Shown: piece after piece, positions 25,361-51,650 of the stretch
Layout: every line of letters starts with the position of its first letter
Position numbering within the stretch: position 1 is the first letter of the stretch
Source: Cerasicoccus frondis
Lineage (GTDB): Bacteria; Verrucomicrobiota; Verrucomicrobiia; Opitutales; Cerasicoccaceae
Assembly: GCA_031296915.1 (NCBI GenBank)
Contig: JAVDPC010000019.1
Coordinates: forward strand, 81,351 to 145,350
Direction of reading: 5' to 3'
DNA: 64,000 nucleotides
The notes under the pieces: generated by a model
Told to the model about the DNA's origin: nothing
Seen by the model: only the letters and a program-made list of their open reading frames with translations
The model's database searches: none
Translations under genes and position numbers: made by a program

Positions 25361-25402
25361 CCAACGTGCCGTTGGATCCAGAGTTTGCCGCAATGCGGCA
25401 AA
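25361..25402 (-). repeat. Twin-hairpin element, copy 1
   Basis: Hairpin CCAACG-TGC-CGTTGG (25361-25375), an 8-base linker, then hairpin TTTGCCGC-AAT-GCGGCAAA (25384-25402). Read on the minus strand, it has the same order as the elements at 38764 and 51609, with compensating base changes in both stems. Confidence 0.7.
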
Positions 25403-25500
25403 GGCGAAATTGATGGGAGTGTGGTGCATGGAATGGGGGGAATGTGGGTAAGGTTTGTAGGGTGAGTAATGTGGGTAAGGTTCTGGGGAGGTGCATTGGC

Positions 25501-25568
25501 CGTAGCATAGGCGTCCCGCCTGTGCCCTACTCCATCTAACTGCGCACAGGCGGGACGCCTATGCTACG
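25501..25568. repeat. Perfect 24-bp inverted repeat with 20-bp spacer
   Basis: Arms 25501-25524 and 25545-25568 are exact reverse complements (24 of 24). Each arm contains its own small hairpin, AGGCG-TCC-CGCCT. The arrangement, two small hairpins in opposite orientation, is like a bacterial BIME built from two REP units. It is not followed by a T run, and no gene ends close to it. Confidence 0.9.
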
Positions 25569-25966
25569 TCTGAGAGGCAACGCCGAATGGGGAAATAAGG
25601 TGATCAATAACACACTATCCATACAGCACCTGATCACAACCTAAAAGTGAACGCACGAGCATTTTATTAGTGAGTAGCTTTCACTATTAACTCGCACTGG
25701 TAATCAACGACTTACACAGGCGAAAACGGCGATTCCAACCATCTCCTGAGCCTGTAAGCAGCAAGAATCGCCGATTCAACTCCTTGCAAAAGCACACATC
25801 CCCTCTCGCCTTTCACGGCCTCTGCGCTCTCCGCGTCCTCTGCGCTCTCTACAGTTTCCCCACACACATGATGAGCTTCAGGCAGAAAACGACTTGAAAC
25901 CTGCCCGCAGATTCTTTCAGTTAGCGGGTTTAGCCATTTTCAAATAAACCCAACGCATAAATAACC

Positions 25967-27823: not shown

Positions 27824-27852
27824 GCAGCGCAGCTTAGCGATTCCTTTCAACG

Positions 27853-27882
27853 GGGGCGGTCCAGTCGGGCCGTCCCTTTTTT
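27853..27882 (+). terminator. Rho-independent terminator of htpG
   Basis: GGGGCGGTCC-AGTC-GGGCCGTCCC forms a ten-base-pair stem with wobble or mismatch positions and runs into six T residues, about 30 bases after the htpG stop. Confidence 0.9.
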
Positions 27883-27971
27883 GTGCATAGCGGCTGACAG
27901 AAGCAGCGCTAATTGATTTTATAAAATTCAGATTGGAATACAGGGACTAAGTACTGTATCTAATCTAGGAA

Positions 27972-34298: not shown

Positions 34299-34299
34299 C

Positions 34300-35125: not shown

Positions 35126-37540
35126 TCAATCAAACACATCAATCTGATTTTCACCCGGAGCAAGACTTAGCTGCGTCTTGCCCCAAATGAAGGCGCCCGA
35201 AGTCTCGCCGGGCAATTGGACGGAGCCAACACATTGCCCATCCTTAAATTCCAGATTGAGCCGAATCTCCCCTTGGGGATGCGTGACTGAAACGTTCATA
35301 TCCTTCAGTAATCCCGGCTGGGGCTTTATGTGCACTTTGCTAAATCCGGGCGCAGCGGGTTGAATTCCTGCGATGCCCGCAAAGCCCCAAAACCAGGGAT
35401 GGCTCCCCCAGGCATGACAATCAGATCGACTCGGTTCTGGGCGTTCCCATGGCGTGCGGGCCCCGGCCTCAAGCATGCCAAACCAATCTGACAAGTTGTC
35501 GAAACACAACTCCGGCGCGTCGCATTGAAACGCAACTTGAAATAAATAATGCCTGAAGTAAACGGCAGTTTGGTGCAGCTCTTGATCATACTTCAATCCA
35601 TGAAGAGCACCGCTCTGTTGCCCCTCGTCAAGACCACCGGCTAATAGTGCGAGAATCTGCGCATGCTGGCTGTAGGAGCTGCGTTCTGCGTCATCAGCCA
35701 TCAATTTTCTATCATCGGACCAAAATCGATCAATCACCAGTTTCAATAGATCATCACATATCTCATCCAATGCCTCTGCGCGTGCTGCGCTACCCACTGA
35801 CCGCTCGACATACGCAGCCTGACGCAAGGCCCAGGCATACAACAGATTGATCACCGAAGAGCAGCCTGCCAACGCGCCTGGAGGCACGCCGTTGTCCCAG
35901 GTAGCGCACCAGTCAACAAACTGCCAACCAGGCAAGCCCGATACTAAGCCACCGGCATTGCGGTAAAGCTCAAAGCGATCGATTACAATGCGCATTCCCG
36001 GCAACAAAGACCGGACAAAATCAACTTCACCTCGCCAGTCCAAGTGATCCCGAATCATCGCCACCCAAATCAGACTAAAAGTAGGCAAGCTTGAGGGCAT
36101 ATTGGAAGGATATCTCCCCGCCGTAAAGTAGCCTCCCTGACCACTTCGGGACCAGTCTCCAAGCAGTAATGCCTTGCGCTGCAAACTGGCGTCACCAACC
36201 GTTACGTAAACGCACAACGCCTGCACTCGCGTATCGCCAAAATACAACATCTGCTCATAGTATGGACAATCAACAAATGTCTCATGCGCACAAGATTCAA
36301 TACCTCGACGACAGAGCTGAAACAAATCGTCATAGGCAGTCGAAGTAGAGGTAAAGTCAGACTTAAAATCGAGCGGCATGCCTGTGCTGGAAATATACCA
36401 GTCGTTGAGCGTGAGCTCTTTTTCCGCAGTCTGAATTCGCATGAGTAAGTAGCGGCCAGAGCGCCACCACAGGTTGCCCCATTTTCGATTTAACCCACCA
36501 TCGGCAATGCAGGCATCGCCGAATCCATAAAAGTATTTTTGATTTATTTCATTACGATTACCCTTGGAAGATCGAATCATATCCCCTTCGCTCTGGCGCT
36601 CGTCATAAAGGGCTTCAGCCCATTCGATCGCAAGGTTAGCGCCTTCGCCCTGACTAATCTCTGCAAATGCATAACCGCAGAAATACTCCCCTAAATCCCA
36701 CAACACCGCGACTTGTGTGTTCGCTGGAATCTGCAAAGGTCGCGACGCGTGAATGAGCTCATTCCAAAGATCAATTTCCGCATCATCCAGCGCGCCTTCG
36801 GGCACTTTTGAAACATCGCCAGCCAATCCGACGTCGACATGCCAGATTGCACGAATTCCACCGCTCCGCACAATTTGTCGTTTCTGCTCAGGTAAGACCG
36901 CAGGGTGCATCACTCGCTCAGAGAAACGCAGCCCCCACTCCCAACCCCAACCTTGAACCTGCGGTTCAGAAACGACCGCCGTCGCCCATCGTTCCGGCTC
37001 AGCACAGGTTTTCACCAAGTCGCTCGCCACCGCCGAACCAACCAAGTGGGCGCCAGGTAGATTCCGCTGTTTGGTGAATTCATAGCCCGCAATTTCCGCC
37101 CATTTCCATTCCGCCGCTCCGGTGTTCAGCAGCGATGCCCATGGGCCTTCTGCGGCAAGGATGAATCCCGGGCGCAATGCCGAATGCGCCTCAGGAGCAT
37201 GCTCCCCCAGTGACCAGACAACCGCCATAAAACGATGCTTCCCACTCGTGGGCTTAATTTCGAAACTCGAAAAGCTCCAGTGGGCAACATCACAAGCCTC
37301 AGGGCCGCAACTGATGAGTTCGTCGTCCAAATACAGCTCGTAGCGTTGATCCGCGCTAACGTGTATGAGGATCGGCGCGCACTCCTGCCCGACTTCGAAG
37401 TCTAATTTTAAACGCGCAACGATAGGAGAATTCCCCTGCACATCTCCCCATATCCACTCCGCAGTTTCGATGGGGTATTGTTGATGAACACCTGCAGCGT
37501 CTGGATTACCTGGTGATAAAATAATTTTCGTGGCAGTCAT
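35126..37540 (-). CDS. Alpha-L-rhamnosidase-like glycoside hydrolase (GH78)
   Basis: An 804-residue protein. The N-terminal half has beta-sandwich modules (AEWIWGDVQGNSPIVARLKLDFEV..., RYELYLDDELISCGPE) as in bacterial GH78 enzymes. The (alpha/alpha)6 barrel begins near residue 400 with ETFVDCPYYEQMLYFGDTRVQALCVY, the counterpart of the GH78 DCPQREERLGWTGDAQ motif in which catalytic acids lie. SGLPGWQFVDWCATW and WGSHPWFWGFAGIAGIQPAAPGF match later conserved parts. No signal peptide is seen, so it may act in the cytoplasm on imported rhamnosides. I start at ATG 37540, although an ATG ten codons upstream is also open. Confidence 0.82.
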   Translation of the reverse strand: MTATKIILSPGNPDAAGVHQQYPIETAEWIWGDVQGNSPIVARLKLDFEVGQECAPILIHVSADQRYELYLDDELISCGPEACDVAHWSFSSFEIKPTSGKHRFMAVVWSLGEHAPEAHSALRPGFILAAEGPWASLLNTGAAEWKWAEIAGYEFTKQRNLPGAHLVGSAVASDLVKTCAEPERWATAVVSEPQVQGWGWEWGLRFSERVMHPAVLPEQKRQIVRSGGIRAIWHVDVGLAGDVSKVPEGALDDAEIDLWNELIHASRPLQIPANTQVAVLWDLGEYFCGYAFAEISQGEGANLAIEWAEALYDERQSEGDMIRSSKGNRNEINQKYFYGFGDACIADGGLNRKWGNLWWRSGRYLLMRIQTAEKELTLNDWYISSTGMPLDFKSDFTSTSTAYDDLFQLCRRGIESCAHETFVDCPYYEQMLYFGDTRVQALCVYVTVGDASLQRKALLLGDWSRSGQGGYFTAGRYPSNMPSSLPTFSLIWVAMIRDHLDWRGEVDFVRSLLPGMRIVIDRFELYRNAGGLVSGLPGWQFVDWCATWDNGVPPGALAGCSSVINLLYAWALRQAAYVERSVGSAARAEALDEICDDLLKLVIDRFWSDDRKLMADDAERSSYSQHAQILALLAGGLDEGQQSGALHGLKYDQELHQTAVYFRHYLFQVAFQCDAPELCFDNLSDWFGMLEAGARTPWERPEPSRSDCHAWGSHPWFWGFAGIAGIQPAAPGFSKVHIKPQPGLLKDMNVSVTHPQGEIRLNLEFKDGQCVGSVQLPGETSGAFIWGKTQLSLAPGENQIDVFD

Positions 37541-37705
37541 CACCTTTCGATCAGCCAAGAGAATCAGCATGTCAAGTGATCCAGACTCCGAAGACGAATA
37601 ACTGGTCTAATAATGCTTCTCCAGGGCGCTTGTTGCGACAGCGAGTGTCGGTAAAAAATCCGCTTGGATGGCGCGCAAGGCTTTGTCATGTTCAACACAC
37701 GCTCA

Positions 37706-38659: not shown

Positions 38660-38763
38660 CGCTTTATTTGTTGTTACACTGTGAATAGTCCCCCTCCTCT
38701 GCATGAACGGATAAAACTGCGGATCGAGACCATCCGCGCCTCCAAATACAGTTGGATTAACCA

Positions 38764-38804
38764 TTTGCCCAATGGGCAAATCCATCGGTCCAGCGGGACG
38801 CTGG
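38764..38804 (+). repeat. Twin-hairpin element, copy 2
   Basis: Hairpin TTTGCCC-AAT-GGGCAAA (38764-38780), a nine-base linker, then hairpin CCAGCG-GGA-CGCTGG (38790-38804). It lies between the convergent oppB and SulP genes and leads into a short tandem array. Confidence 0.8.
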
Positions 38805-38863
38805 GGCAAATCTAACGGTCCAGCGGGACGCTGGGGCAAATCTAACGGTCCAGCGGGACGCTG
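38774..38863 (+). repeat. Three tandem 30-bp repeats
   Basis: Units at 38774-38803, 38804-38833 and 38834-38863; units 2 and 3 are identical and unit 1 differs at two bases. Each unit starts GGGCAAATC and ends in the hairpin CCAGCG-GGA-CGCTG(G). The last unit ends seven bases before the SulP stop codon, so the array is the 3' flank of both convergent genes. Confidence 0.95.
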
Positions 38864-38869
38864 GCTGGG

Positions 38870-40570
38870 TTAGTCAAAACGGTCGGTGGCGACGTGGTAT
38901 TGCGGGTCTTCAGAACGGTTAACTTCGACCATATCCCCAGCTTTGTCGAGCAGCTTGCGGCACTCTGGCGACAGATGCGTGAGGTGCAGGCGCTTACCCA
39001 AAGCACGGTATTTTTCAGCGAGGCCATTGATCGCTTCCAAGCCAGACTGATCATACACGCGCGTGAAATAGAAGTCGATCACCACGTCGTCGGGATCGTT
39101 TTTCGGATCGAACAATTCCTTGAACGAGGCCACCGATGCAAAGAACAACGGGCCGTGTAGCTGATAGGTTTTGCTGCCCTTTTCATTGACGTATTCCTCG
39201 GCTCCTAGGTGCGTGGCATGCTGCCAGGCAAAGACCAACGCCGAAATAATCACGCCCAAAATCACCGCCGTCGCCAAGTCATGCATGAAGACCGTGTATG
39301 CAGTCACCACGAGCATCACGAGCACGTCGCTCTTCGGGATTTTCTTCCAGGTGTGCAGCGTGGCCCATTCAAAGGTGCCAATCACCACCATGAACATCAC
39401 GCCGACCAGTGCGGCCATGGGGATCATTTCAATCCACGGAGCCAGCACCAAAACGAAGAGCAGCAGGCACACCGCCGCCGTGATCCCCGAGGCGCGACCA
39501 CGCCCACCCGAGTTCACATTGATCAGCGACTGGCCAATCATCGCACAACCACCCATACCGCCAAACAAGCCGCAAATGGTGTTCGCCAAGCCTTGGCCAA
39601 AGCACTCACGGTTGCCGCGCCCGCGCGTCTCGGTGATCTCGTCGATCAGCGTCAGCGTCATGAGGGACTCGATTAGGCCAACGCCTGCCATCGTCAGCGC
39701 AAACGGCAGGATAATCCACAAGGTGTGGAGGTTCATTGGCGGCAAGAATTCATACTGATCATCGAGGAAAAACAGCTTCGGCAAACCTGCAGAAATACCG
39801 CTATTTGCTTCAACTTCCTGCGCAATGTATGCCTCAACTGCCTCCGGCGCAGCATCTTCACCAACTTCCTTCGGCGCTTCAGCGGTAGCCTTGGCAATGG
39901 TGTTTGTCTTCAACATGTCGCCCACGGTCAGGAGCACATTGTCCTGATTCTGGGCTGCCCAAGATTCGGGACCGGCTTTGTTTACAGCAATCGAAATCCC
40001 CGTCACCACCAGGATTGCGGCCAGAGAGGCTGGCACGGCGCGGGTGAACTTGGGCAACAGCCAAATGATCGCCATAGTCAGCGCCACCAGCGCCAACATA
40101 ATCCACAATGCCGGCCCTGCCATGGTGACCAATTCGCCCACATCGTTGACCGTGTTGAAGCTGCCAAACTGCGCCATGAAGATCACAATCGCCAAACCAT
40201 TGACGAAGCCCAGCATCACCGAATGCGGCACCATGCGGATAAATTGCCCCAGCTTTCCGAGGCCAGCCGCAATCTGTATCAGCCCACACAATACCACCGC
40301 TGGAAACAGATACTCTACGCCATGAATCGCCACCAACCCGACAACCACCACGGCCATCGCCCCAGTAGCGCCTGAAATCATGCCCGGTCGCCCACCGAAG
40401 ATCGCCGTGAGCAGGCCCATGAAGAAGGCCGAATACAGTCCAATGATCGGCGACACGCCCGCCACGAACGCAAATGCGATCGCCTCGGGCACCAGCGCCA
40501 AGGCCACTGTCAGCCCTGACAGCAGGTCGTCTTTTAGGTTAGCGGAACGTTTCCGGAAAAAATCGAGCAT
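38870..40570 (-). CDS. SulP family anion transporter with STAS domain
   Basis: A 566-residue inner-membrane transporter (SLC26/SulP) for sulfate, bicarbonate or related anions. The start [40 protein letters not shown] is the family signature, and [43 protein letters not shown] matches the conserved central region. The C-terminal STAS domain (about 445-545) includes [21 protein letters not shown] and [19 protein letters not shown]. An unusually long loop rich in Ala and Glu (about 215-255) interrupts the membrane part. Ten to twelve membrane segments are predicted. Substrate is not deducible. Confidence 0.92.
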
Positions 40571-40747
40571 GTCCTTCTTTGATTGAGTCTGTCCACAGGG
40601 TAGATCGACAGGCTAACGCACAACAGAAGGGGCGATGTAGTTAAGGAACGCTACTGGCTTTGTAAAGGCTTATTCTGGCAGAGCCACCTTGAGGAGGACG
40701 CAAAGATTTTAATTTACCGCGCAGTGAAATTTCATAGGAATCACTAC

Positions 40748-41743
40748 ATGCCATCTCGTTCTTTACTGATCACCGCCCTCCTCTGCCTAAGTGCTTTCGT
40801 TGCGCGCGGAGAAATGCGTGAATGGATAGATCGTCAGGGGCGCAGCTTTCGCGGAGAGCTCTATGAAGTCGATGAGGCAATGGTTAAAGTCCGCCGTGAG
40901 AGCGATTTCCGCATTTTCGAGCTCCAGCTCAATCAACTCAGCGACGCCGACCAACAGTGGATCGCCGACCAGCAGAAGCCAAAGAAATTGCCACCGCTAG
41001 CTGCCCCGCCAGAGCCTGAATATCCGACCAAGGAATTGGACCGTAGCTTAATACCAAGCTACAACCAAAACGACTTTCGTAACAATGGCACTTGTGGCCC
41101 ATCTGCCCTGATGAATTTTATGATGTGGTGGGGAGATCAACTCTACCCGGAAATTTTGGCAAGTGGTAGTTTGGACACAAAAGCAACACGAACCATGCAG
41201 AGACTCATCCGAACTTGCGACACCAGTGGCGGCACACATGTGAGAAATTTAGACAAAGGCCTACGAGAATATTTCGACCGCTACTCACCAGAATACAGTG
41301 TTGATATCGAATGGGAGGCAAAGCCGGATACTCAATGGCTGGAACAAGCTACACAGGGAAACAACCTGGTAGTGCTAACATTGAGCTATTTCCCGAGTCT
41401 TGATGGCGGACGCCAAGACGCCGGCCATTTTGTAAGTTTAGCAACCTCTTCCGGCGACGTCGGGACAGTTCATACCTGGGGAAAAATCTACCAAGTGAAA
41501 TACGTCTCGATGGGAAAACAACAATTCAGCAACTACTATTGGCCACCAGGCATGATTCGCGCGGACTATGATGCGCTCCGCTGGAAGCCTTACTTACAGG
41601 CCTACCGCGTTCCAATGGATGGCGAAGATCCTGATCGCGCGGGCCTCTGGAATGAGCATGTGGGCATCATCAGTTGCGCCATGCTGGCCAAAATCCGCCC
41701 AGCCACCGAAGCGGAAATCGCCGAACGCGCCAAGCAACGATAA
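40748..41743 (+). CDS. Secreted C39-like cysteine peptidase with SHD1-like N-terminal domain
   Basis: A 331-residue protein with a signal peptide (MPSRSLLITALLCLSAFVARG). The segment REWIDRQGRSFRGELYEVDEAMVKVRRESDFRIFELQLNQLSDADQQWI (about 23-72) resembles the SHD1-like domain common in secreted proteins of Planctomycetes and Verrucomicrobia. The C-terminal part has the papain-like layout of C39-type peptidases: GTCGPSALMNFMMWWG with the putative catalytic Cys near residue 116, and DAGHFVSLATSSG with the His near 230. Substrate unknown. Start at 40748; the ATG eight codons upstream would lengthen the n-region. Single-gene unit, convergent with the NAGGN operon. Confidence 0.75.
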   Translation: MPSRSLLITALLCLSAFVARGEMREWIDRQGRSFRGELYEVDEAMVKVRRESDFRIFELQLNQLSDADQQWIADQQKPKKLPPLAAPPEPEYPTKELDRSLIPSYNQNDFRNNGTCGPSALMNFMMWWGDQLYPEILASGSLDTKATRTMQRLIRTCDTSGGTHVRNLDKGLREYFDRYSPEYSVDIEWEAKPDTQWLEQATQGNNLVVLTLSYFPSLDGGRQDAGHFVSLATSSGDVGTVHTWGKIYQVKYVSMGKQQFSNYYWPPGMIRADYDALRWKPYLQAYRVPMDGEDPDRAGLWNEHVGIISCAMLAKIRPATEAEIAERAKQR

Positions 41744-41749
41744 GCGCCC

Positions 41750-43009
41750 CTACTTCGCCTTGGGTGCGAGGCGCTCGGGGGGCGGGACTTGGGCCGTGGA
41801 CTCGGTTTGCTCTAGCTGGGTGAGCTCGACATCGGTCACTTTGACCTTCGGGAAGTCCTTGATTGAAGTCAGATTCTTCTTCTGACGCTTGTAAACCAAG
41901 TGGCTCTGAGCATAGGCCACGATCAATTGCGTCACCGAAATCAATGAATCAATGTGCGTCCGCTCGTAGCCATGCGACGCGTCGAGGCCAAAAGTGACCA
42001 GCGCCGTGCGGATGTCGTTGCCAGCCTCTAAAGCCGAGGCGCTGTCGCAGCGGTAGTATTTAAAAATATCGCGCTGGTGGTTGATCACGTTTTTCTTGCA
42101 GAGATTGAGCAAGTGATGCGTCAGGTGGTAATCGAAGGGACCGGACGAGTCGCCCATCGCAATCGTCGCGCCTTTCTCGCTTGAGTTCTGGCCCGGTGCG
42201 CAGGTGCCGTTGTCAATAGACACGAGCTCGGCCACGTCACCATGCAAAATCGCCGAAGCGCCGGAACCGACTTCTTCCGAAATCGTGAACAACAGATGGC
42301 ACTCCACTGGCAATTCAATATCGTGCTCCTTGATGTATTTCGCGGCAGCCAGCATCGCGGCGACACCTGCCTTGTCATCGAGGTGACGCGAGTTCAGGTA
42401 GCCATTACTGAGGAATTCGGCGCCGGAATCCACGCCCACGAAATCGCCGATTTGGCAGCCAAGCTCTTCCAAGTCAGCAGCGGACGCGGAGTCCTGATCC
42501 AGGCGCAGTTCAACGTGCTCCCAGTCGGTCGGTTGGGTGTCGATTTCCTCATTGTAAACATGCCCCGAGGCCTTCAGCGGAAGAATCGTGCCGCGGTAAA
42601 CGGTCTTGTCCGTGTAAACGGAAACGCGGGCGCCTTCGGCAAAGCGCGAGGACCAGGTGCCCAGCGGCACAAGGCGCAAGCGGCCATTGTCCTTGAGTCC
42701 TTTGACCATGGCGCCGAGCGTGTCGACGTGGCCAACGATGGCGCGGTCGGGGCTGTAGGCGCGCCCAGGCAAAGTCGCACGAACGGCGCCGCGACGGGTC
42801 AGCTCATACTTCAGGCCGAGCGCATCGAGTTCGTGGCAAAGCTCACGCACAATGGGGTCGGTGTAGCCGCTGGGGCTATGAATGCTCAGCAGCTTGAGCA
42901 GCGTTTGCTGCAGGTAAACTTCGTCGATCAGCAAGGGGGCCGGTTTGGGCGCTTTCTCCTTGGTGACGGACTTCTCAACTTTCTTTTCTGTGACTTTTGC
43001 TTTGCTCAT
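41750..43009 (-). CDS. M42 family metallopeptidase of the NAGGN osmoprotectant system
   Basis: A 419-residue cytoplasmic di-metal aminopeptidase-like protein. Metal-site motifs are VGHVDTLGAMV, SRHLDDKAGVAAMLAA, ISEEVGSGAS with the catalytic Glu, and SHGYERTHIDSL near the C-terminus. This type of M42 hydrolase is found as the third member of the N-acetylglutaminylglutamine amide gene trio in other bacteria; its role there, possibly turnover or processing, is not settled. Its ATG overlaps the stop of the GNAT/ATP-grasp gene by four bases (ATGA), so the two are translationally coupled. The N-terminus has a Lys-rich leader of about 25 residues. Confidence 0.9.
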   Translation of the reverse strand: MSKAKVTEKKVEKSVTKEKAPKPAPLLIDEVYLQQTLLKLLSIHSPSGYTDPIVRELCHELDALGLKYELTRRGAVRATLPGRAYSPDRAIVGHVDTLGAMVKGLKDNGRLRLVPLGTWSSRFAEGARVSVYTDKTVYRGTILPLKASGHVYNEEIDTQPTDWEHVELRLDQDSASAADLEELGCQIGDFVGVDSGAEFLSNGYLNSRHLDDKAGVAAMLAAAKYIKEHDIELPVECHLLFTISEEVGSGASAILHGDVAELVSIDNGTCAPGQNSSEKGATIAMGDSSGPFDYHLTHHLLNLCKKNVINHQRDIFKYYRCDSASALEAGNDIRTALVTFGLDASHGYERTHIDSLISVTQLIVAYAQSHLVYKRQKKNLTSIKDFPKVKVTDVELTQLEQTESTAQVPPPERLAPKAK

Positions 43010-44706
43010 GCAGTGGGTAAATTTTCTTCGTCCACAGGTTGCGGTCCATTGGGTATAATGCTCTGTGGGAAGAGGAAATCGATAAATTTCTCGGCGGTCG
43101 GTTGGGGTTCGTGGTTGGCCAAACCAGGACGTTCGTTCCCCTCGATGATCACGTAGTCCGGCTGATCCGGAGCCTTGACCATCAGGTCGAGCCCGACAAC
43201 CGGCATTTCGAGCACCGTCGCCGCGCGGATGGACGCCTCAGCCAGAACCTTGTGGAGCTTGTCCGTGACGTCGTGGATCGTGCCGCCGGTGTGCAAGTTG
43301 GCCGTCTTGCGCACGGCAATGACCTCTTCTTTTTCCAATATGTCGTCGAGTGTGTAGCCCGCCATTTTGACGCAACGCTCGGTCTCTTCGTCCAGCGGGA
43401 TCTTGCTCTCGCCTCCAGTCGCAGCGGAGCGGCGACGGCTCAGCTTTTCGATGAGTTCGCGCACCGTCAGCTCTCCAGTGCCAATGACAGTCGGTGGGCG
43501 GCGAATCGCGGCAGCAACGACCTCCTGGTTGATCACGATGACGCGTAAATCATGGCCCTCCACATACTGCTCGATGATGACTTTTTCCCCGTGCTCGCAA
43601 GCCTTCTCTACGGCCTTTTCGAGTGTCTCCTGCGAGCGCACATCGACGGAGATGCCGAGCCCCTGCTCGCCCGCAACTGGCTTAACGACCACGCTCTTGT
43701 GCCGGTTGAGGAATTGCACGTTCTTGCGTGGATCGTCGGCCATGATTTGGTCGGGCACCGAAAGGCCTGCCTTGGCCAGCACTTCGTGCGTAAACTGTTT
43801 ATCCTCCGCACGTTTGAGCGCGATGGCGGAGGTCATCGTCGTCAATGATTCCCAGCAAGTCACCGAGCGACCACCCAGGCTCAAGCGGAAGTAATTGCGC
43901 TCGGGCGAAATCGGGTCCACCGCAATGCCGCGGCGCAGGGCCTCGTTGATGATGATTGCCGCGTATGGGTTGTAGCCCTCCGGCGCCGGTGCGCCCACGA
44001 ACAATCGCTCGTTGATGCGGTTGCGGCGCTTGGCGGCAAAGATGTAGCAACGTTCGAAGCCCATCTTCTCATAAAGGCGCTGGGCCATCTCGTTGTCGTG
44101 AATCACGGACACGTCCATGAAGTCGCGGCCGAGCGATTGGTAGTGCTCGATAATGTGGCGGCACAGGCTCGTGCCAACGCCAGGCAACTCTGCCTGCGGG
44201 TCCACGCCCACCGCCCAAAGGCTACAGCTATTGGGCATGTGCTCGCCGCAGGCCTGGTGATCCGCGCCCATCGCGACGCCCAGCACATCGCCAGTCTCGT
44301 CCTTAACCGCGATGAAAAACGTAAACTGCTCGGCGTGGCGGTTTTCCCAAACGTAGTCCGTCTTGAGTGGCACCATCTTGAGCGTGGAATAAATGCGGTT
44401 AATCTCGTCAAGTTGCTCCTTGTGCTCGAGCTTCTTGACCGAAAACCCGATCGGCTGCTTATCGGATGGCTGGTAGTTCGCCATGTTAAGCCGGTAGGTG
44501 TTCGACGGATCAAGGAATATCTGCTGCGGCGCGCAGTTGAGCACCAGATGCGGATCCACAATATAAAGCGCAATATCGCGCTGATCCTGATGCTCTGAGA
44601 GAATTGCGTCAGCCAGCGCCTCCGGCTTGGGAAACGTGTCCGCAAAGATGAGTCGGCCCCAGCCACATTGCAGCATGGTGCCGGGTTCAGTTTTTAGAGA
44701 TTCCAT
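43006..44706 (-). CDS. ngg: N-acetylglutaminylglutamine synthetase (GNAT/ATP-grasp)
   Basis: A 566-residue bifunctional enzyme that forms the acetylated dipeptide N-acetylglutaminylglutamine, precursor of the osmoprotectant NAGGN. The N-terminal part carries a GNAT acetyltransferase domain (about 100-215: FFIAVKDETGDVLGVAMG..., WAVGVDPQAELPGVGTSLCRHIIEH, MAQRLYEKMGFERCY). The C-terminal part is an ATP-grasp ligase (FTHEVLAKAGLSVPDQIM, VVVKPVAGEQGLGISVDV, KVIIEQYVEGHDLRVIVI, VVGLDLMVKAP, VIIEGNERPGLANHEPQP). It lies between the amidotransferase gene (117 bases upstream) and the M42 gene (overlapping). Confidence 0.93.
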   Translation of the reverse strand: MESLKTEPGTMLQCGWGRLIFADTFPKPEALADAILSEHQDQRDIALYIVDPHLVLNCAPQQIFLDPSNTYRLNMANYQPSDKQPIGFSVKKLEHKEQLDEINRIYSTLKMVPLKTDYVWENRHAEQFTFFIAVKDETGDVLGVAMGADHQACGEHMPNSCSLWAVGVDPQAELPGVGTSLCRHIIEHYQSLGRDFMDVSVIHDNEMAQRLYEKMGFERCYIFAAKRRNRINERLFVGAPAPEGYNPYAAIIINEALRRGIAVDPISPERNYFRLSLGGRSVTCWESLTTMTSAIALKRAEDKQFTHEVLAKAGLSVPDQIMADDPRKNVQFLNRHKSVVVKPVAGEQGLGISVDVRSQETLEKAVEKACEHGEKVIIEQYVEGHDLRVIVINQEVVAAAIRRPPTVIGTGELTVRELIEKLSRRRSAATGGESKIPLDEETERCVKMAGYTLDDILEKEEVIAVRKTANLHTGGTIHDVTDKLHKVLAEASIRAATVLEMPVVGLDLMVKAPDQPDYVIIEGNERPGLANHEPQPTAEKFIDFLFPQSIIPNGPQPVDEENLPTA

Positions 44707-44751
44707 TGGTAGAGAGGTGTGGGAAAATCGATGTCGCGATCGGATTCGCTT

Positions 44752-44790
44752 TCGTCATCGAACAGCCTTCGATAGCGATTGCGATGACGA
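44752..44790 (-). promoter_or_regulatory. Hairpin in the asnO-ngg intergenic space
   Basis: TCGTCATCG (44752-44760) and CGATGACGA (44782-44790) are exact inverted copies around a 21-base loop, with more imperfect pairing outside. It has no T run, so it is not a clear terminator; it could be a processing or attenuation structure between the first and second NAGGN genes. Confidence 0.45.
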
Positions 44791-44823
44791 CAACGAGAGC
44801 GATTTATTCATGAGAGATTGCTT

Positions 44824-46599
44824 TTAACCGACGCCATGGGTTTGCAGCCACAGCTCAAGCAACGCGAGTTGCCACAGCTTAGAACCGCGCAACGGCGTGA
44901 TGTGCTTCTCGGGATCAGCGAGCAGCTTTTCCACGTAGGCGGGCTGGAAGAGGCCACGCTGCTTGGCGGTGTCGTTGAGCACGGCGTCGCGCGCCAAGTC
45001 GAGGAACGGCCCCCGCAGGTATTTCAGCGCTGGCACCGGGAAGTAGCCCTTCGGCCGGTCGATCACCTCGTGCGGGATCACCTTGCGCCCGGCTTCCTGC
45101 AAAATGTATTTGCCGCCGTTCTGGATTTTCAGCTCCGGGGGAACACGGGCGGCGAACTCCACCACCTCGTGATCTAGGAACGGCACGCGCGCTTCAAGGC
45201 TGGCGGCCATCGTGTTGTTGTCCACGCGCTTGACGGGGTCGTCGACGAGCATCACGAGCGCATCGAGGCGCATGGCCTTGTCGATCGGCGCTTCGGCGCC
45301 CGGCATCGAGAAGTGCGCCTTCACGAAATCCCGGGCGTAGTCTTCCTGCACCCACTTACTCTGCATGAGCTGCTGGTAGTCGGGGAAGTCGCGGTCGAAG
45401 AACGCCTTGCTGTAGCTCTCCAGCGGATCGGTCGCGGTCATCATCGGCGGATACCAGTGATAGCCACCAAATATCTCGTCGGCCCCCTGCCCGCTTTGGA
45501 CCACCTTTACGTGCTGCGCGACCTTCTGGCTAAGCAGGTAGAAACCGACGTTGTCGTGGCTGACCATCGGCTCGGACATTTGCCCGATGCAATCCTTGAG
45601 AGCGGGCAACGCCTTCTGCGAATCGATGTGCAGCTTGTGGTGGCTCGTCTTGAAGCGGTCGACAATGATGTCCGAGTATTTAAACTCGTCGCCGACTTCG
45701 TCACCCACGGTCTCGAAGCCGATGGAAAAAGTATTAATCTGCTGGCTTTCGTGCTCGGCGAGCAGGCCTACGATCAAGCTGGAGTCGAGGCCGCCTGACA
45801 GCAATACGCCCACAGGCACGTCGGCCACGAGGCGGCGTTTCACCGCGCGGCGCAGCACATCGAGAGTGGCGTCTTCCCATTGGTCCTTGGTCCAGGATTG
45901 CTGTTCCTCGGTCGCGCCGTATTCGAGCGTCCAGTAGGTGGACTGCGTCATCGTGCCATCGGGCTCGACCACGGCCACCGTGGCGGGCGGCAGCTTTTTA
46001 ATGCCGTTCAGGATCGTGCGCTCGGGCGGCACAATCGAGTGGAACGACATGTAGTAATTCAGCGCAACGGGATCGAGCGAGGTGTCAACATCGCCCGCTT
46101 CGACGAGGCCCGGCAGGCTGGAACACCAACGCAGGCGGCCCGGCGCCTTCGAATAATAAAGCGGCTTAATGCCCACGCGGTCACGGGCCATAATCAGGCG
46201 ACCGGTGTCGCGCTCGTAAATCGAAAACGCGAACATGCCGTTGAGGTGTTGCACGCAGTCGGCGCCCCACTCCTTATAGGCCTTAAGAATGACTTCCGTG
46301 TCGCCGTGGCTGAAAAATCGATAGCCTTTGCCGATCAACTCTTCCCGCAGCTCCGGATAATTGTAAATGCAGCCGTTGAAGGCAATGGTCAGCCCGTGCT
46401 CCGAGTCGACCATCGGCTGCTGCGCCGCCTCTGAGAGGTCGATAATTTTCAGGCGTTGGTGCCCCAAGGCGACGGGGCCCCGCACAACCATGCCATTACC
46501 ATCAGGGCCCCGGGGGACCATCTGACACATCATTCGCGCAACAGCCGCCGTGTCGGGCGCCTGCGCATCAAAACGCATTTCTCCTGCAATTCCACACAT
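44824..46599 (-). CDS. asnO: N-acetylglutaminylglutamine amidotransferase (asparagine synthase-like)
   Basis: A 591-residue class II glutamine amidotransferase of the AsnB family. MCGIAGEMRF gives the N-terminal nucleophile Cys2 and fixes the start. GPDGNGMVVRG and FNGCIYNYPELREEL are glutaminase motifs, and the synthetase domain has the PP-loop VLLSGGLDSSLIVGL (about 260-275) and VVQSGQGADEIFGGYHWY. In this gene context, it amidates the dipeptide made by the ngg product to give N-acetylglutaminylglutamine amide, an osmolyte known from Sinorhizobium and Pseudomonas. It is the first gene of the three-gene operon. Confidence 0.93.
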   Translation of the reverse strand: MCGIAGEMRFDAQAPDTAAVARMMCQMVPRGPDGNGMVVRGPVALGHQRLKIIDLSEAAQQPMVDSEHGLTIAFNGCIYNYPELREELIGKGYRFFSHGDTEVILKAYKEWGADCVQHLNGMFAFSIYERDTGRLIMARDRVGIKPLYYSKAPGRLRWCSSLPGLVEAGDVDTSLDPVALNYYMSFHSIVPPERTILNGIKKLPPATVAVVEPDGTMTQSTYWTLEYGATEEQQSWTKDQWEDATLDVLRRAVKRRLVADVPVGVLLSGGLDSSLIVGLLAEHESQQINTFSIGFETVGDEVGDEFKYSDIIVDRFKTSHHKLHIDSQKALPALKDCIGQMSEPMVSHDNVGFYLLSQKVAQHVKVVQSGQGADEIFGGYHWYPPMMTATDPLESYSKAFFDRDFPDYQQLMQSKWVQEDYARDFVKAHFSMPGAEAPIDKAMRLDALVMLVDDPVKRVDNNTMAASLEARVPFLDHEVVEFAARVPPELKIQNGGKYILQEAGRKVIPHEVIDRPKGYFPVPALKYLRGPFLDLARDAVLNDTAKQRGLFQPAYVEKLLADPEKHITPLRGSKLWQLALLELWLQTHGVG

Positions 46600-46707
46600 A
46601 ACTTATAGGTAGCCGCGCCAAGATAGTTGGAGTTGGCGCAGGGTCGCAAAGACCATCCTCAAAACCATGCAGGGTGTCAAAGGCTAATGGGCTTTTTTGC
46701 CCAATCC

Positions 46708-47463
46708 TCAACCACGCGCGCGACGTCGCATCCAATAAAACACCAAGCCGCCTCCCAGCGCCATCAGCACATAGGTCGAAGGCTCGGGCACGCCCTGGAC
46801 ACCGTTGATGCGGACATCGTCCAGCTCAGTCTCGGTCAGCGCCTGATCATAAATAAAAACATTATCTATGATTCCGCTGAAAGCTTCACCGGTCAAACCG
46901 GGGTTCGTGCCAATGGCGATGTAAGTCATGCCGCTGTCGCTAAAATAGCCACTGCTCAAAGTCTGTACCGTCCCCACTGAATAATCGTAAGTGTAGAGCA
47001 AGGTGCTATTGCTGGACATATCATAGGACACAGCGACAAACGTCCAGTTGTTCAACGTAGCGTCGGTCTTGCCCAGAACGCCAGTCCCGTTAAATGTCGC
47101 CCAGCCATACGCTGGGCCCGAGCCGCGGGGATCGAGTCCTAAGCTGCGATCAAATGCGCCGTTGTCGTGGGATATCACCTGCCGTGCACCGCTCGCTAGA
47201 TTGGTCTGCACCCAGGCGCCCATGGTCATCGAAGGCAGAACGGAAGAGTTAATGTCAATCAACGCAGTTATCCAACTAGCGGCATCGAATGAGTAAGCAT
47301 TTCCCGTAAAGCCAGTCGTCTGCGTGACGTTGCCATTAACCGTCCCCGTAACACCCCCCACGATGTCGTTGGTGTTGTTATCAAACGGGAAGTAATGAAT
47401 TGGCACAACTGCGCTTGACATTAAAGCCCCAAAAATCTGGCTAGTAAGTAGAAACTTTATCAT
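46708..47463 (-). CDS. PEP-CTERM LamG-domain secreted protein
   Basis: A 251-residue exported protein: N-terminal signal peptide (MIKFLLTSQIFGALMSSAVV), a LamG/concanavalin-like domain (HYFPFDNNTNDIVGGVTGTVNGNV..., SMTMGAWVQTNL..., NNWTFVAVSYD..., FSGIIDNVFIYDQALTETELDDV) and a C-terminal PEP-CTERM sorting signal, VPEPSTYVLMALGGGLVFYW followed by MRRRARG. PEP-CTERM proteins are processed by an exosortase and often end up in the outer surface or biofilm matrix. No exosortase gene is in this window. Ligand unknown. Confidence 0.9.
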   Translation of the reverse strand: MIKFLLTSQIFGALMSSAVVPIHYFPFDNNTNDIVGGVTGTVNGNVTQTTGFTGNAYSFDAASWITALIDINSSVLPSMTMGAWVQTNLASGARQVISHDNGAFDRSLGLDPRGSGPAYGWATFNGTGVLGKTDATLNNWTFVAVSYDMSSNSTLLYTYDYSVGTVQTLSSGYFSDSGMTYIAIGTNPGLTGEAFSGIIDNVFIYDQALTETELDDVRINGVQGVPEPSTYVLMALGGGLVFYWMRRRARG

Positions 47464-47573
47464 TATAACGCTACATTATGAAATAAAGCATTCGAAAGTC
47501 TAGAAGCTAAACCAATAAATAGAGACAGCAAGAATTCTGAGACGATCTAGTCATCGGCTTCGCCCACTCTTTC

Positions 47574-47903
47574 TTACGGTCCAGTCCCTTCAGCATTTTT
47601 CTGAGAAGTTGCCACAGCAGTAGCCGACAGAAATCCCAATAGAGCTCCGAGGACGACATTGAAAGATTGGGCCGCCAATTCTTTTCGCGCCTTAAAAGCA
47701 GAGCTTTCTACCCGGATAGCATCCAAAATGTGATTCGCAACAGTAGGGTCTTGTAAAAGCTTTATGTTTTTCTCACCTAAGTCAGCAGCCGGGTTATATC
47801 TTTCCTGAAAGAAGGCTAAATATCCAGTAGCAAATACCAGCATAATGTAAGCTGCCAGTATCGCCACAAGCATGGGTGTCTGAGATTTTTTTAAACGTAG
47901 CAT
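47574..47903 (-). CDS. Small membrane protein of unknown function
   Basis: A 109-residue protein with two predicted membrane helices: SQTPMLVAILAAYIMLVFATGYLAFF near the N-terminus and FNVVLGALLGFLSATAVATS near the C-terminus, with a charged helical loop of about 45 residues between. I do not recognise the family. Start set at ATG 47903, six codons inside the longest frame. It stands alone between the PEP-CTERM gene and the divergent OPT transporter. Confidence 0.6.
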   Translation of the reverse strand: MLRLKKSQTPMLVAILAAYIMLVFATGYLAFFQERYNPAADLGEKNIKLLQDPTVANHILDAIRVESSAFKARKELAAQSFNVVLGALLGFLSATAVATSQKNAEGTGP

Positions 47904-48062
47904 TTTTATAAGTATGCACAATCAACTCATAATTGAAATATTTTTATTACAACAAGTCATTAAAAAATAAAAATAGCCTTTTAGGGATTAAACTGATATT
48001 CTAAAACCTAATTATTTGACATAAGCCCTTGCCATTCTGCAACATCGTCCAATATCCAGAGC

Positions 48063-49886
48063 ATGGCCTCCCCGGAACGACAACTCACCGTGCGCGCCAT
48101 CGCAACCGGCTTTTTGCTGGGCGCGTTGCTGGCCCCGTGCAACATCTACACTGGCCTGAAGATTGGCTTTTCATTCAATATGTCGATCGCCGCGGCGCTC
48201 GTCAGCTACGCCTTCTGGAACAGTCTCGCGCACTTCGGCAAAGGCCCACGCTGGGGACTCCTGGAGAACAACATTAACCAGACGGCCGCCTCCGCCGCCG
48301 CATCGATACTCTCCGCCGGCCTCGTGGCGCCGATCCCCGCACTTCAATTGATCACTGGTGAGCCTTTTCACTACCCCATGCTGGTTACCTGGGTGTTTGT
48401 CGTCAGCTTTGCGGGCATAATTTGCGCATTGGCTGTCCGCCGCCAAATGCTTGACCGAGACAACCTGCCTTTCCCTAACGGCGTCGCCACTGCCGAGACG
48501 ATCACCGAGATTTACGCACACGGCAAAGAGGCCGCGTTCCGCATTAAACTGCTGCTCAGCGCCGGGTTGTTGGCTGGCGGCGTGAAACTCTACCAATCGT
48601 TCGCGCCGCAAAACTGGACGATCCCATCGCGGGGACTGCCTGAGAGCTGGGGCTTCAAGCCGGGCGAAAACGTCATCCAGAAAGGTTTGGATTTCGTCAG
48701 CTACCGCTCGCTAGGCGTAGAGCTTCAGCCCTCGCTGCTACTCTACGGTTTTGGCGCCATTGTCGGCCCGCGGGTCGGCGTTTCCCTGCTGCTCGGCACA
48801 CTGATCGGCTGGATGATGCTGCCGGAAAAACTCCTCGCCGAAGGCTGGATCGAACCCGCGCTCGACGGCGCCTGGTATGGCAAGATTTACGAATGGACCA
48901 TCTGGCCTGGCGTCACGCTCATGGCTGCCGCAGCGCTGATGTCATTCTTCATTTCTCTGGCGCGTATCTTCTGGCAAAAGCAGCAGGCTAAATCCGCCGC
49001 TGAAGCCGCCGCAGTTGACGACAATGCGGACTACGAACCCGGCGGCGAACGCCACTTTCCGCGCAGTTGGTTCATCGCGGGCTGCGCCATTGCCCTCTTG
49101 CTGAGCGTCATTGCGCAAAAGGCGTTTTTCGATATCCCGATCTGGCTCGGCGTCATCGCCTTTGCGCTGTCGTTTATTTTGGCGATCATCGCGGGCCGCG
49201 TCTCCGGCGAGACGGGCATTCCACCAATTGGCGCACTGGGCAAAATCACGCAGGTCACCTTCGGCTTCCTCGCCCCCGCCAACATGACGACGAATCTCAT
49301 GGCCGCCAATGTGACTGGTGGCGCTGCGGGCCAATGCTCCGACATGCTGCACGATTTAAAGACTGGCAAGCTCATCGGCGCAAACATGAAGGCGCAGGCT
49401 ATCGCACAGGTATTTGGCATTATTTCAGGCTCCATCGCTGGCTGCGCCGCCTACAAAATACTGATCCCCGATCCACAAACTCAACTGCTCACCGAGCAAT
49501 GGCCGGCGCCCGCAGTCGCCGCATGGAAAACCATAGCCGAGGTTCTCGCCGAAGGCTTTCACGCCGTGCCCGAGGGCGCCCGTGAGGCGATGATGATTGC
49601 GCTCATCATTGGCATTGCCCTGGCCGTCGCCGAAGCCATGGTGCCGGAAAAGCACAAGAAATTCGTCCCCAGCGCCTCGGCTCTCGGCTTCGCGTTGATC
49701 ATCCCGCCGTTCATCAACTTGGCCATGTTCATTGGCTCAATGATCGGCGAGCTAGCCAAGCTGATCAACAAGCACTGGGCGGCAAAATACGTCATTGTCA
49801 TCGCCGCTGGCCTCGTTGCCGGTGAATCGCTGGCTGGCGTGCTCGAAGCCATCCCAGAGTTCATCGGGCATTTTCTCAAAAAATAG
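48063..49886 (+). CDS. OPT family oligopeptide/metal-chelate transporter
   Basis: A 607-residue inner-membrane transporter with about 14-16 membrane segments. The N-terminal RAIATGFLLGALLAPCNIYTGLKIGFSFNMSIAAALVSYAFW and DNLPFPNGVATAETITEIYAHGKEA are OPT signatures, as are ANMTTNLMAANVTGGAAGQCSDMLHDLKTGKLIGANMKAQAIAQVFG. OPT proteins import small peptides, glutathione conjugates or iron-siderophore complexes by proton symport. No partner gene is next to it, and the substrate cannot be inferred. Confidence 0.93.
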   Translation: MASPERQLTVRAIATGFLLGALLAPCNIYTGLKIGFSFNMSIAAALVSYAFWNSLAHFGKGPRWGLLENNINQTAASAAASILSAGLVAPIPALQLITGEPFHYPMLVTWVFVVSFAGIICALAVRRQMLDRDNLPFPNGVATAETITEIYAHGKEAAFRIKLLLSAGLLAGGVKLYQSFAPQNWTIPSRGLPESWGFKPGENVIQKGLDFVSYRSLGVELQPSLLLYGFGAIVGPRVGVSLLLGTLIGWMMLPEKLLAEGWIEPALDGAWYGKIYEWTIWPGVTLMAAAALMSFFISLARIFWQKQQAKSAAEAAAVDDNADYEPGGERHFPRSWFIAGCAIALLLSVIAQKAFFDIPIWLGVIAFALSFILAIIAGRVSGETGIPPIGALGKITQVTFGFLAPANMTTNLMAANVTGGAAGQCSDMLHDLKTGKLIGANMKAQAIAQVFGIISGSIAGCAAYKILIPDPQTQLLTEQWPAPAVAAWKTIAEVLAEGFHAVPEGAREAMMIALIIGIALAVAEAMVPEKHKKFVPSASALGFALIIPPFINLAMFIGSMIGELAKLINKHWAAKYVIVIAAGLVAGESLAGVLEAIPEFIGHFLKK

Positions 49887-49936
49887 GTAGGCATTACCCG
49901 CTTCCCGACTGCCTGATAAAATGATACGAATACAGT

Positions 49937-50434
49937 ATGCATTCTCAGAAGTATTTAAGGGCCGTCACGAACCTCATCTTGCTGCTCGCGGCTGGCTTCG
50001 CTCATGCCACTCCCCTACTCTCATTTAAAACGATCTCCTACGTCCACGCTCCGGAGGACACGCTCACGATCAAGTCCGTTCGCTTAGTCCAAGGCGAGGA
50101 ATTGGCCATCGATAGCGTCATCGAAGTCACCGGAGACTATACGTTGGCGTCCGTAGAAAACGCACGGTTGGGCCTGTCCATTTCGTCCCGCGAAAAAGGT
50201 GGTAAGCACGTGTGGCAGGACTGGGAAATCATAGCGATCAAGGCTGGCAAAGGAACGTTTACTCTCCGTCGAGAAATCGACCGCCACGGCGAAATCCATG
50301 TGTCCATCTACCCGGAAACCCCGCCTGGCATAGCCAGCGCCTCCACCACCCGGCTCGTCTTCTTAACCAGCGCCTCGCTGGACCGTAAAAAGCACGCTGA
50401 GCGCCAATGCGGCGCCGCTACTTGTCCGGATTAG
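49937..50434 (+). CDS. Secreted protein of unknown function
   Basis: A 165-residue protein with a signal peptide (YLRAVTNLILLLAAGFAHA, cleavage near AHA-TP). The mature part appears all-beta (LTIKSVRLVQGEELAIDSVIEVTGDYTLASVENARLGLSISS..., GTFTLRREIDRHGEIHVSIYP), like an immunoglobulin-type sandwich. I do not recognise the family. Its 3' end overlaps the end of the convergent gene on the other strand by 17 bases. Confidence 0.65.
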   Translation: MHSQKYLRAVTNLILLLAAGFAHATPLLSFKTISYVHAPEDTLTIKSVRLVQGEELAIDSVIEVTGDYTLASVENARLGLSISSREKGGKHVWQDWEIIAIKAGKGTFTLRREIDRHGEIHVSIYPETPPGIASASTTRLVFLTSASLDRKKHAERQCGAATCPD

Positions 50435-51416
50435 GGTTGAGGCCCGCGTTCAGGCGCACGGAGTAAATCGTCTGCTCTGGCGACTCGCCCAGGAAATGCC
50501 AGGGAAATTGCGTGACCGCAGTCCCAAGCTTTTCCATGACAAAGGCCACGTCTTCCGACTGTCCCATCATTTGGAGGCAGAAGCCAAACGAGTTGTAGAA
50601 GCGCGCATGCTGCCACGGCTCAACATTATCCGTGAACGGCTGAGACTTTTGATAAGCCTCGGCCAGCGATTGAAAGACCTCCGGTCGTTTGAAGTATTGG
50701 GCAGCTGCTTCTTTCTTTTCCTCGAGTAAGAGCTGGCCCCATTCTTCGATGTGGGCATTGGCGATAAGAGTCGTCAGGAAGCTGCCGCGCTCGGGCCCAG
50801 AGGCCTTGTCCCGCGCGAACGCAAACATCGACTCACGAGTACCGCCCCACTTCGGCGCCAGAAAAGTCATCACCTGATTGATCCCCGGGTAAAAGCCAGC
50901 CGAGGCCCGCTCCATCTTTGCGCACAGAATGAGCAGCGTCTCCTCATCCATACGCCGCCCACCAAAACCCAGAATCAAATTAAAAAATACAATCGGATTG
51001 CCTGGATAGACTTGCGCCGCCTTCAGATTGACCTCCTCAGCTCGAGCCAGAATACGGCCAAAGCTTTCAAACTGTTCATTCGATGTTATCGAGGAGACAG
51101 CAGTCCCGCGGTGCTGATAGGCCCGGCGCACAAGCTCGTGCCCCTCGATGAAAGGAATCAATGGGCTCTCCACGCGCTCCTTTTTATAGAGTCCGAAGAA
51201 GTGATCGAAACCAGTGTGCTCTATGAGCATTTCCAGCGAATGATACTGACGAATGAACGACAGATTCATCAACTTTTCTTCGAACTGATCCCAACTGCGA
51301 GAGATGAAAAAATGCAGTGTCTGCGGTGCATCGGGATCCGCAATAAACTTGCGGCACGTGAAATTAGGCTCCGGCGAGCCCAATGCCTTTGTAAACATCG
51401 AAAGGAATTTAAACAT
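50418..51416 (-). CDS. Helical protein, possibly DUF4034-like
   Basis: A 332-residue protein without signal peptide or membrane helix. It is helical with TPR-like spacing, and contains LKAAQVYPGNPIVFFNLILGFGGRRMDEE and INQVMTFLAPKWGGTRESMFAFARDKASG. The L-x-P-K-W-G-G segment resembles that of DUF4034-type proteins and the corresponding L-P-R-W-Y-G part of the lipoprotein at 11541-12599. Function unknown. It overlaps the convergent secreted-protein gene at the 3' end by 17 bases. Confidence 0.75.
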   Translation of the reverse strand: MFKFLSMFTKALGSPEPNFTCRKFIADPDAPQTLHFFISRSWDQFEEKLMNLSFIRQYHSLEMLIEHTGFDHFFGLYKKERVESPLIPFIEGHELVRRAYQHRGTAVSSITSNEQFESFGRILARAEEVNLKAAQVYPGNPIVFFNLILGFGGRRMDEETLLILCAKMERASAGFYPGINQVMTFLAPKWGGTRESMFAFARDKASGPERGSFLTTLIANAHIEEWGQLLLEEKKEAAAQYFKRPEVFQSLAEAYQKSQPFTDNVEPWQHARFYNSFGFCLQMMGQSEDVAFVMEKLGTAVTQFPWHFLGESPEQTIYSVRLNAGLNPNPDK

Positions 51417-51608
51417 AGTAGCAAAGTGTGTTTAGCAGGTAATCTGAATAAAATGCAACCATGAGAAATCGTCAATAGAACACAACCGAACCTTCATATT
51501 TTGAGATAAAGATCATGAAACAATCGCTATGACAGTACTAACCAAGGAATAAGTTACAAATTCGACCAATGCCTCTCTCTCGAAAAAAGAAAGATCAGTC
51601 CAAGCCAT

Positions 51609-51650
51609 TTGTCCGATGGGCAACTTTATGGATGCAACGGGACGTTTGCT
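51609..51650 (+). repeat. Twin-hairpin element, copy 3
   Basis: TTTGTCC-GAT-GGGCAAC (51609-51625, six pairs including one G-T), a nine-base linker, then GCAACG-GGA-CGTTTGC (51635-51650, one bulged base). Same order and spacing as the element at 38764-38804. It ends at the stop codon of the MFS gene, i.e. again at a gene 3' end. Confidence 0.7.

Follow-up and report, generated by a model that had tools for sequence, protein, structure and literature searches.

What kind of element sets the same pair of small hairpins down at several gene ends of one genome, with stems that differ from copy to copy by paired changes? The question arises in a 64,000-nucleotide (nt) stretch of Cerasicoccus frondis (assembly GCA_031296915.1, contig JAVDPC010000019.1, positions 81,351 to 145,350), hereafter the window, in whose own coordinates positions are given. 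A first-pass annotation had noticed such twin hairpins near positions 25361, 38764 and 51609 and had proposed a family akin to the repetitive extragenic palindromic (REP) sequences. The plus-strand copy at 38763-38804 gives the layout: hairpin 1 (hp1, 38763-38781), ATTTGCCC-AAT-GGGCAAAT, with a stem of 8 base pairs (bp) and a 3-nt loop, recognised by pattern, model match and fold test; a linker CCATCGGT (38782-38789), whose final CGGT is a foot tetranucleotide of the form S-G-R-T covarying with the hairpin that follows; and hairpin 2 (hp2, 38790-38804), CCAGCG-GGA-CGCTGG, recognised by pattern and model match. The reading that we favour, with a probability of about one half, is that of an orphan, genus-specific mosaic of single-strand DNA hairpins, similar to REPs and bacterial interspersed mosaic elements (BIMEs), which would have spread in the ancestor of the genus and would now be mostly inherited.

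A dispersed twin-hairpin family in Cerasicoccus

Genome-wide, the string CCARCGNNNCGYTGG occurs at 39 places in the window's own genome (G000), against 2 for its reversed control, and a twin-hairpin covariance model first built from 10 copies returned 124 matches at E <= 10, including 79 at E < 0.05, some of the 124 being hp1 alone on the other strand. Independently of any model, the pattern of hp2 with its 4-nt foot was found at 69 places in G000 and at 52, 172 and 11 places in the three other Cerasicoccus genomes carrying the element (G001, G003 and G002, respectively), with 0 places for the reversed control. Copies thus lie well over control in the genome searches, and the dispersed, REP-like family announced by the first-pass annotation stands. 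Among the matches listed, the 10-copy model recognised 4 of 54 related genomes, and a 123-copy model recognised 4 of the 372 genomes of the order, all Cerasicoccus in both cases, under a stricter filter by which weak matches are lost. Across the named genome collection, 24 stretches hold the exact 20-mer TCGGTCCAGCGGGACGCTGG; 20 belong to Cerasicoccus maritimus or C. arenae. The remaining four (L107, L111, L114 and L124) come from Oscillospiraceae and Christensenella, where in the latter it forms a small repeat; their flanks differ, and they were read as chance or an unrelated repeat and set aside as family members.

The copies analysed below comprise 80 of the 124 own-genome rows, the 44 others being other-strand hp1-only, partial or overlapping, or weak matches, and 95 of the 124 rows of a second model listing. 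These 175 rows include 161 copies with an intact hp2 and 124 that measure exactly 48 nt and have sufficient flank, which give 123 distinct sequences; 40 of the 63 planned stretches of G003, 20 of 29 of G001 and 0 of 8 of G002 were retrieved. The copies are short, dispersed and mostly extragenic palindromes, as REPs in the broad sense are, with just 4 of 161 lying within a called gene. Their organisation is also that of a BIME-like mosaic, hp1, hp2, an extra hairpin CGGATGC..GCATCCG and outer hairpins being found within one array.

The compensating stem changes noticed in the window hold across the family. Pairing holds in 97.7% of stem cells over the 123 copies that are distinct and ungapped, both-sided changes occur in 9 of 14 stem pairs, and the covariation score of the stems is 0.419, whereas shuffles give 0.110 and slid pairings no more than 0.088. 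Mutual information further revealed, after four stem pairs, a top signal linking linker base 5 to loop base 2 of hp2, and a next one linking linker base 7 to hp2 stem position 4. These signals correspond to two rules, by which the first foot base is C when the middle loop base is G and G when it is C, and the third foot base is G beside a G-C fourth stem pair and A beside an A-T one. Scored as pairs, the two contacts give 95.5% standard pairs and a score of 0.726, against 0.259 when shuffled and at most 0.170 when slid. In a pattern-defined set where the foot matches were left free, each rule was obeyed at 125 of 132 places, a tally that covers G000, G001 and G002 and leaves out the 172 places of G003. 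All four combinations of the two rules are present, in several stems, and 144 of 161 copies have CGGT, CGAT, GGGT or GGAT as their foot. Fisher tests on the 33 distinct 19-mers, which count sequences and not independent events, gave P = 1.4e-5 for the loop rule (28 carrying a loop C or G) and P = 1.3e-3 for the stem rule.

These contacts could correspond to a loop pair and a base triple, and shared ancestry of the subtypes could also contribute to them. The covariation of an S-G-R-T foot with the loop and stem of its own hairpin is new here; among the open-licence papers listed, and in their text as distinct from their figures, neither this family nor any foot tetranucleotide that covaries with the hairpin beside it was found described. 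A tentative extension, which we hold to be possible and no stronger, is that of a REP class whose foot is read by its own hairpin, the loop pair and triple forming a minimal triplex or pseudoknot, with the self-matching fold recognised by a putative single-strand DNA enzyme and insertion favouring stop codons. If true, such a fold, rather than a fixed tag, would let stems vary so long as foot and hairpin change together.

The stems were also informative on strand. Read from hp1 to hp2, their mismatches comprise 22 G-T and 16 A-C, the true numbers of which may lie closer, because the search model and the hp1 filter admit G-T, and not A-C, on that strand. The tolerance of G-U on one strand that marks a structured RNA is not seen in these counts, which give no sign of selection on one RNA strand. 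Stretches with 4 or more T among the next 8 nt follow hp2 in 0 and hp1 in 3 of 122 copies on the sense strand (control 12), and in 14 and 6 of 122, respectively, on the other strand (control 11), none clearly over control. A scan of the window against Rfam at gathering threshold, which left the copies elsewhere out, gave 0 matches. The earlier suggestion that the element is perhaps structured in RNA was consequently not upheld. The same counts bear on intrinsic transcription terminators recurring by convergent use, an explanation in keeping with the 80 copies that lie between convergent gene ends, among the 155 with a called gene on the hp2 side. It is most improbable and was rejected, given the T counts and the 14 terminator-like sites listed for window positions 36000-53000, among which hp1 or hp2 is found 0 times; linker and foot are moreover conserved here, unlike in terminators.

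Stop codons and gene ends shared between species

Position provides the second distinctive trait of the family. With genes called by codon scoring, a stop codon lies at most 1 base from hp2 in 62 of the 161 intact copies, in agreement with the seat at gene 3' ends initially proposed, and at exactly zero in 45. The abutting stops are TAG in 38 cases, TAA in 23 and TGA in 1, for background frequencies of 34%, 47% and 19%, and a further 10 genes end at a TAG within the linker, while hp2 faces a gene 5' end in 24 of 161 copies. Among the 101 copies with called genes on both sides and a 3' end on the hp2 side, 53 abut the stop, against 1.8 expected under uniform placement and 31 expected if all same-strand TTA and CTA were equal targets; when the latter was simulated 20,000 times, no run attained 53. 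A stop codon forming part of the element itself was ruled out, since TTA or CTA follows hp2 in only 5 of the 99 non-abutting copies, and the unit therefore does not carry it. Of 160 copies, 61 have the dinucleotide CT directly 3' of hp2, with 31 among the 98 that do not abut a stop and 30 among the 62 that do; directly 3' of hp1 it stands in 79 of 123 copies.

Two observations made by eye touch these junctions. At L213 and L200 at 8001, and at L017 (1240-1287), right halves of an apparent older hp2 stand between the intact hp2 and the stop, as if exchange had happened in the loop. At L034 (1696-1743; C51:1696), the gene end seemingly holds an older in-frame hp2 and linker, the TAG of which serves as the stop that a newer hp2 abuts.

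Gene ends were compared among G000, G001 and G003 where the retrieved stretches overlap, and 32 of 49 comparison rows were kept, those dropped being repeated pairs, alignments not within 8 nt of the stop, or rows with an unparsed query hairpin. In 25 of these 32 comparisons hp2 stands at the stop in both species, and in 7 it does not. One misparsed row and one doubly counted pair among the 25 are excluded from the stem tally, whose comparisons are not all independent, a genome being common to some of them. At orthologous stops, 23 comparisons of hp2 stems gave 11 double and 3 single changes, and 15 comparisons of hp1 stems gave 15 double changes, 5 single ones and 2 of another kind. The clearest case of unit replacement is C5:259220 versus L194:3849, where the sequences from the last five codons through hp1 are alike except for hp1 itself, which has the arm ATTGTCGC on one side of the comparison and ATTTGCCC on the other, the opposite arm being complementary in both cases. 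At a gene end followed in three species (L187:11257, C16:112070 and L223:9058), hp2 and foot differ jointly between G003 and the other two, and hp1 differs between G000 and the other two. Because stems at shared stops differ mostly by double changes, the hairpins look exchanged or rebuilt as units. The proposal of the first-pass annotation, a folded form selected or generated as a unit, is supported, and its second side is the one that stems resemble between species; replacement of stems as units between species is well supported, and its mechanism could be template switching, conversion or an enzyme.

Other comparisons concern the arrival of the element. An empty site is found at L190:7855, where the element abuts a TAG and G000 (L074) has a TAA at the same codon and no element. 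At L195:782 the stop lies two codons earlier than in the window relative, and at C31:56493 the gene reads through hp2 to the linker TAG where the G001 relative (L227) appears to keep its own TAA; both count against simple insertion after the stop.

Such changes raise the question of whether mutation alone, by template switching from arm to arm or by conversion between copies, keeps the hairpins perfect, covariation then reflecting how stems are made and neither recognition nor selection. The excess of double over single changes at orthologous sites, some of them without a possible G-T step (G-C to C-G), and the similar numbers of G-T and A-C mismatches (22 and 16) agree with this explanation, and template switching is described as able to create multibase compensatory changes (PMC8794818). 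Arm-to-arm switching does not, however, predict that unpaired foot bases track the loop base or the fourth stem pair, with the reservation that conversion of a whole subtype could take the foot along, and the seat at stop codons is not predicted either. We consider mutation alone unlikely.

The retained positions could also be those of a functional RNA in the 3' untranslated region. In the sense order stop, hp2, ACCG-type tail and hp1, the tail would lie in the hp2 groove and form a tiny pseudoknot, acting on termination or messenger RNA decay. It would accord with hp2 beginning, in the 62 abutting copies, at the stop of the very gene that would transcribe it, with sites and stop positions often retained between species, and with tail-loop and tail-stem matches compatible with such a fold, the geometry of which we infer. 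Yet G-U on the sense strand is not in excess of A-C (16 against 22), T-rich stretches after the hairpins are below control on that strand, the window holds no Rfam match at gathering threshold, and 24 of 161 copies turn hp2 towards a 5' end, which makes this RNA distinctly unlikely.

Known repeat systems and the origin of the family

Several of these traits have precedents. The text of Di Nocera et al. 2013 (PMC3733652) describes GTAG and CGTC REPs with alternative complementary stem residues and seats near gene 3' ends, and TAG termini of REPs that can serve as stop codons, so that compensating stems, and REPs seated at stop codons, were known before. According to the same text, Opitutus terrae, also a member of the Verrucomicrobia, is rich in GTAG REPs. 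Together with their BIME/REPIN arrays, GTAG REPs, which are RAYT/TnpAREP-associated, resemble the family by stems of mostly 6-9 bp, by the 2-3-nt loops of many GTAG families, by alternative complementary stem residues, by their position at gene 3' ends with TAG termini as stops, by their dimers and clusters (PMC3733652), and by a tetranucleotide 5' of the hairpin foot (PMC6006769). Their tag, however, is a fixed GTAG, whereas the foot of the family is S-G-R-T, neither GTAG nor GTRG, and varies with the hairpin; before hp1, in the sense reading, 10 of 123 copies have the tag GTAG and 42 have ATAG. The family further differs from GTAG REPs in having two unlike hairpins head to tail and in flanking none of the Y1 transposase loci tested. 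Its stop is often the gene's own, as at L190:7855 and L074, where the same codon is found with and without the element, and at C31:56493 (versus L227) and L195:782 (versus the window) the element stands where the other species has its gene end. CGTC REPs are likewise REP-like and without a dedicated transposase gene (PMC3733652), but have loops of 4-5 nt and mostly tails that fit CCA (PMC3733652), where the aligned copies have 3-nt loops and the S-G-R-T foot; CGTC occurs only before the extra hairpin, in some copies. The ends of IS200/IS605 insertion sequences (IS608, ISDra2) also bear a tetranucleotide just 5' of a hairpin, which there enters into base pairing and triples (PMC6006769). Their guide pairs with a separate cleavage site, whereas the foot of the family matches its own hairpin, and the family has no attached transposase.

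Matches to Y1_Tnp were found in G000 (3), G001 (8) and G003 (2 partial, covering 62 and 41 of 121 positions), and 0 in G002. The three own-genome genes all lie on contigs other than that of the window, in agreement with the earlier remark that no REP-associated tyrosine transposase (RAYT) gene lies in the window. Among 10 genomes of the family Cerasicoccaceae searched, 6 had a match, for 25 loci in all, and the twin-hairpin element, sought with the model and the hp1 and hp2 patterns up to ~1.5 kb either side, was present at 0 of them. RAYT association was consequently rejected, the Y1 gene flanked by the same hairpin that defines RAYT-associated REPs (REPtrons) being found at none of these loci. 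The element is thus REP-like in anatomy and place, yet lacks the tag and, at the loci searched, the transposase that mark the RAYT-associated class.

Mobilisation of ordinary REPs by resident Y1 transposases of the RAYT type would agree with the Y1_Tnp matches of three genomes and with the seat of the hairpins at gene ends, a typical one for REPs (PMC3733652). The hairpins beside Y1 genes are, however, other ones in a simple scan, for instance CGGGGGTTGAAACCCCCG or GGCGACGACGGAGCGTCGCC, hp1 and hp2 are absent from the 25 loci, and G002 holds copies and no Y1 match; such mobilisation appears quite improbable. As a side observation, Y1_Tnp genes carry flanking hairpins of their own, CGGGGGTTGAAACCCCCG or close variants (L035, L152) and GGCGACGACGGAGCGTCGCC (L173), and hairpins resembling GGCGACGACGGAGCGTCGCC also adjoin some twin-hairpin copies.

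In the reading that we favour, an orphan genus-specific mosaic, a putative foot-reading enzyme of HUH/Y1 type, which would now be lost or unrecognised, would have spread the hairpins as single-strand DNA when the genus had not yet diverged from its ancestor. The copies would persist by descent, and their perfection may be upheld by template switching in the hairpin or by conversion between copies. Any benefit to the host, for instance by shielding messenger RNA 3' ends, would be conjectural. Spread as single strands is suggested by the foot, which sits where the guides of IS200/IS605 and TnpAREP sit, and by the CT after hp2 in 61 of 160 copies, TnpAREP being described as cleaving at CT and as using a guide tetranucleotide 5' of the hairpin foot (PMC8266576, PMC6006769).

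A set of observations weighs against this reading. The abutment of stops exceeds the expectation for TTA or CTA targets, so that sequence-targeted insertion is not the full explanation, and the CT signal owes something to CTGG stubs (16 of 99 copies have the tail CTG). The foot is not GTAG, each foot rule is kept in only 26 of the 33 distinct 19-mers, whose subtypes share ancestry and are not independent events, and the tilt of mismatches toward G-T comes from the model used for searching and the filter applied to hp1. Nearly every 48-nt unit has a sequence of its own (123 of 124 distinct), and the units thus show no sign of a recent burst. Finally, besides the 25 Y1 loci devoid of the element, copy number does not track Y1 genes: G003 has the most copies and just two partial Y1 matches, and G002 has copies and none.

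The family bears on how REPs spread and keep their stems perfect. It brings together, within one small genus, three testable handles, namely a covarying foot, an often-retained seat at stop codons and stems that differ as paired units, and offers a natural case both for separating selection on folding from mutational template switching and for seeking a non-Y1 enzyme behind orphan REPs.

The window copies and neighbouring modules

In the window, the layout initially described is present at all three loci, as hp1, an 8-nt linker and hp2, and exactly so at 38764. The common form CCArCG-GGA-CGyTGG attributed to hp2 did not hold throughout, the loop of the 25361 copy being GCA and the 51609 copy being degenerate. 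The 38764 copy belongs to a tandem array with a 30-bp period (38774-38864, plus strand), in which hp2 occurs three times (38790, 38820 and 38850), each preceded by CGGT. The array ends 5 nt from the stop (TTA, 38870-38872) of a minus-strand gene (38870-40570) with Pfam matches to Sulfate_transp and STAS.

The minus-strand copy at 25358-25405 consists of hp1 at 25384-25402, TTTGCCGC-ATT-GCGGCAAA, the foot GGAT and hp2 at 25361-25375, which reads CCAACG-GCA-CGTTGG on the minus strand. It is embedded in a dispersed repeat of ~0.7 kb (25036-25762, strand unspecified), to which 5 other own-genome loci align over 709-786 nt at 71-88% identity, and is therefore not an independent insertion. The degenerate plus-strand copy at 51604-51651 has a mismatched hp1 (51607-51625, TTTGTCC-GAT-GGGCAAC) and an hp2 with a one-base bulge (51634-51649), and its final base overlaps the stop (CTA, 51649-51651) of a minus-strand gene (51649-53289) with a Pfam match to MFS_1. 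Its fold is in the chance range (z = -1.46, 14 of 200 shuffles equally good), whereas those of the two other copies are not (z = -3.4 and -4.2, 0 of 200 shuffles equally good). Within the window, the hp2 pattern is found 38 times for 14.7 expected, above chance, and the hp1 pattern with at most 2 mismatches 8 times for 4.9 expected, not above chance. A search for inverted repeats of length 12 in 38690-38900 found none, because the hairpin arms are shorter.

Other palindromes accompany the copies. At 25501-25568 lies an inverted repeat (CGTAGCATAGGCGTCCCGCCTGTGC) whose 25-bp arms match perfectly and stand 18 nt apart, and hairpins resembling it, CACAGGCGRGACGCCTGTG, recur at other retrieved loci of the genome. 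An outer hairpin-like sequence, GCGGATCGAGACCATCCGC, stands at 38719-38737, upstream of the twin-hairpin element; similar outer hairpins precede other copies, and the full array thus has further modules.

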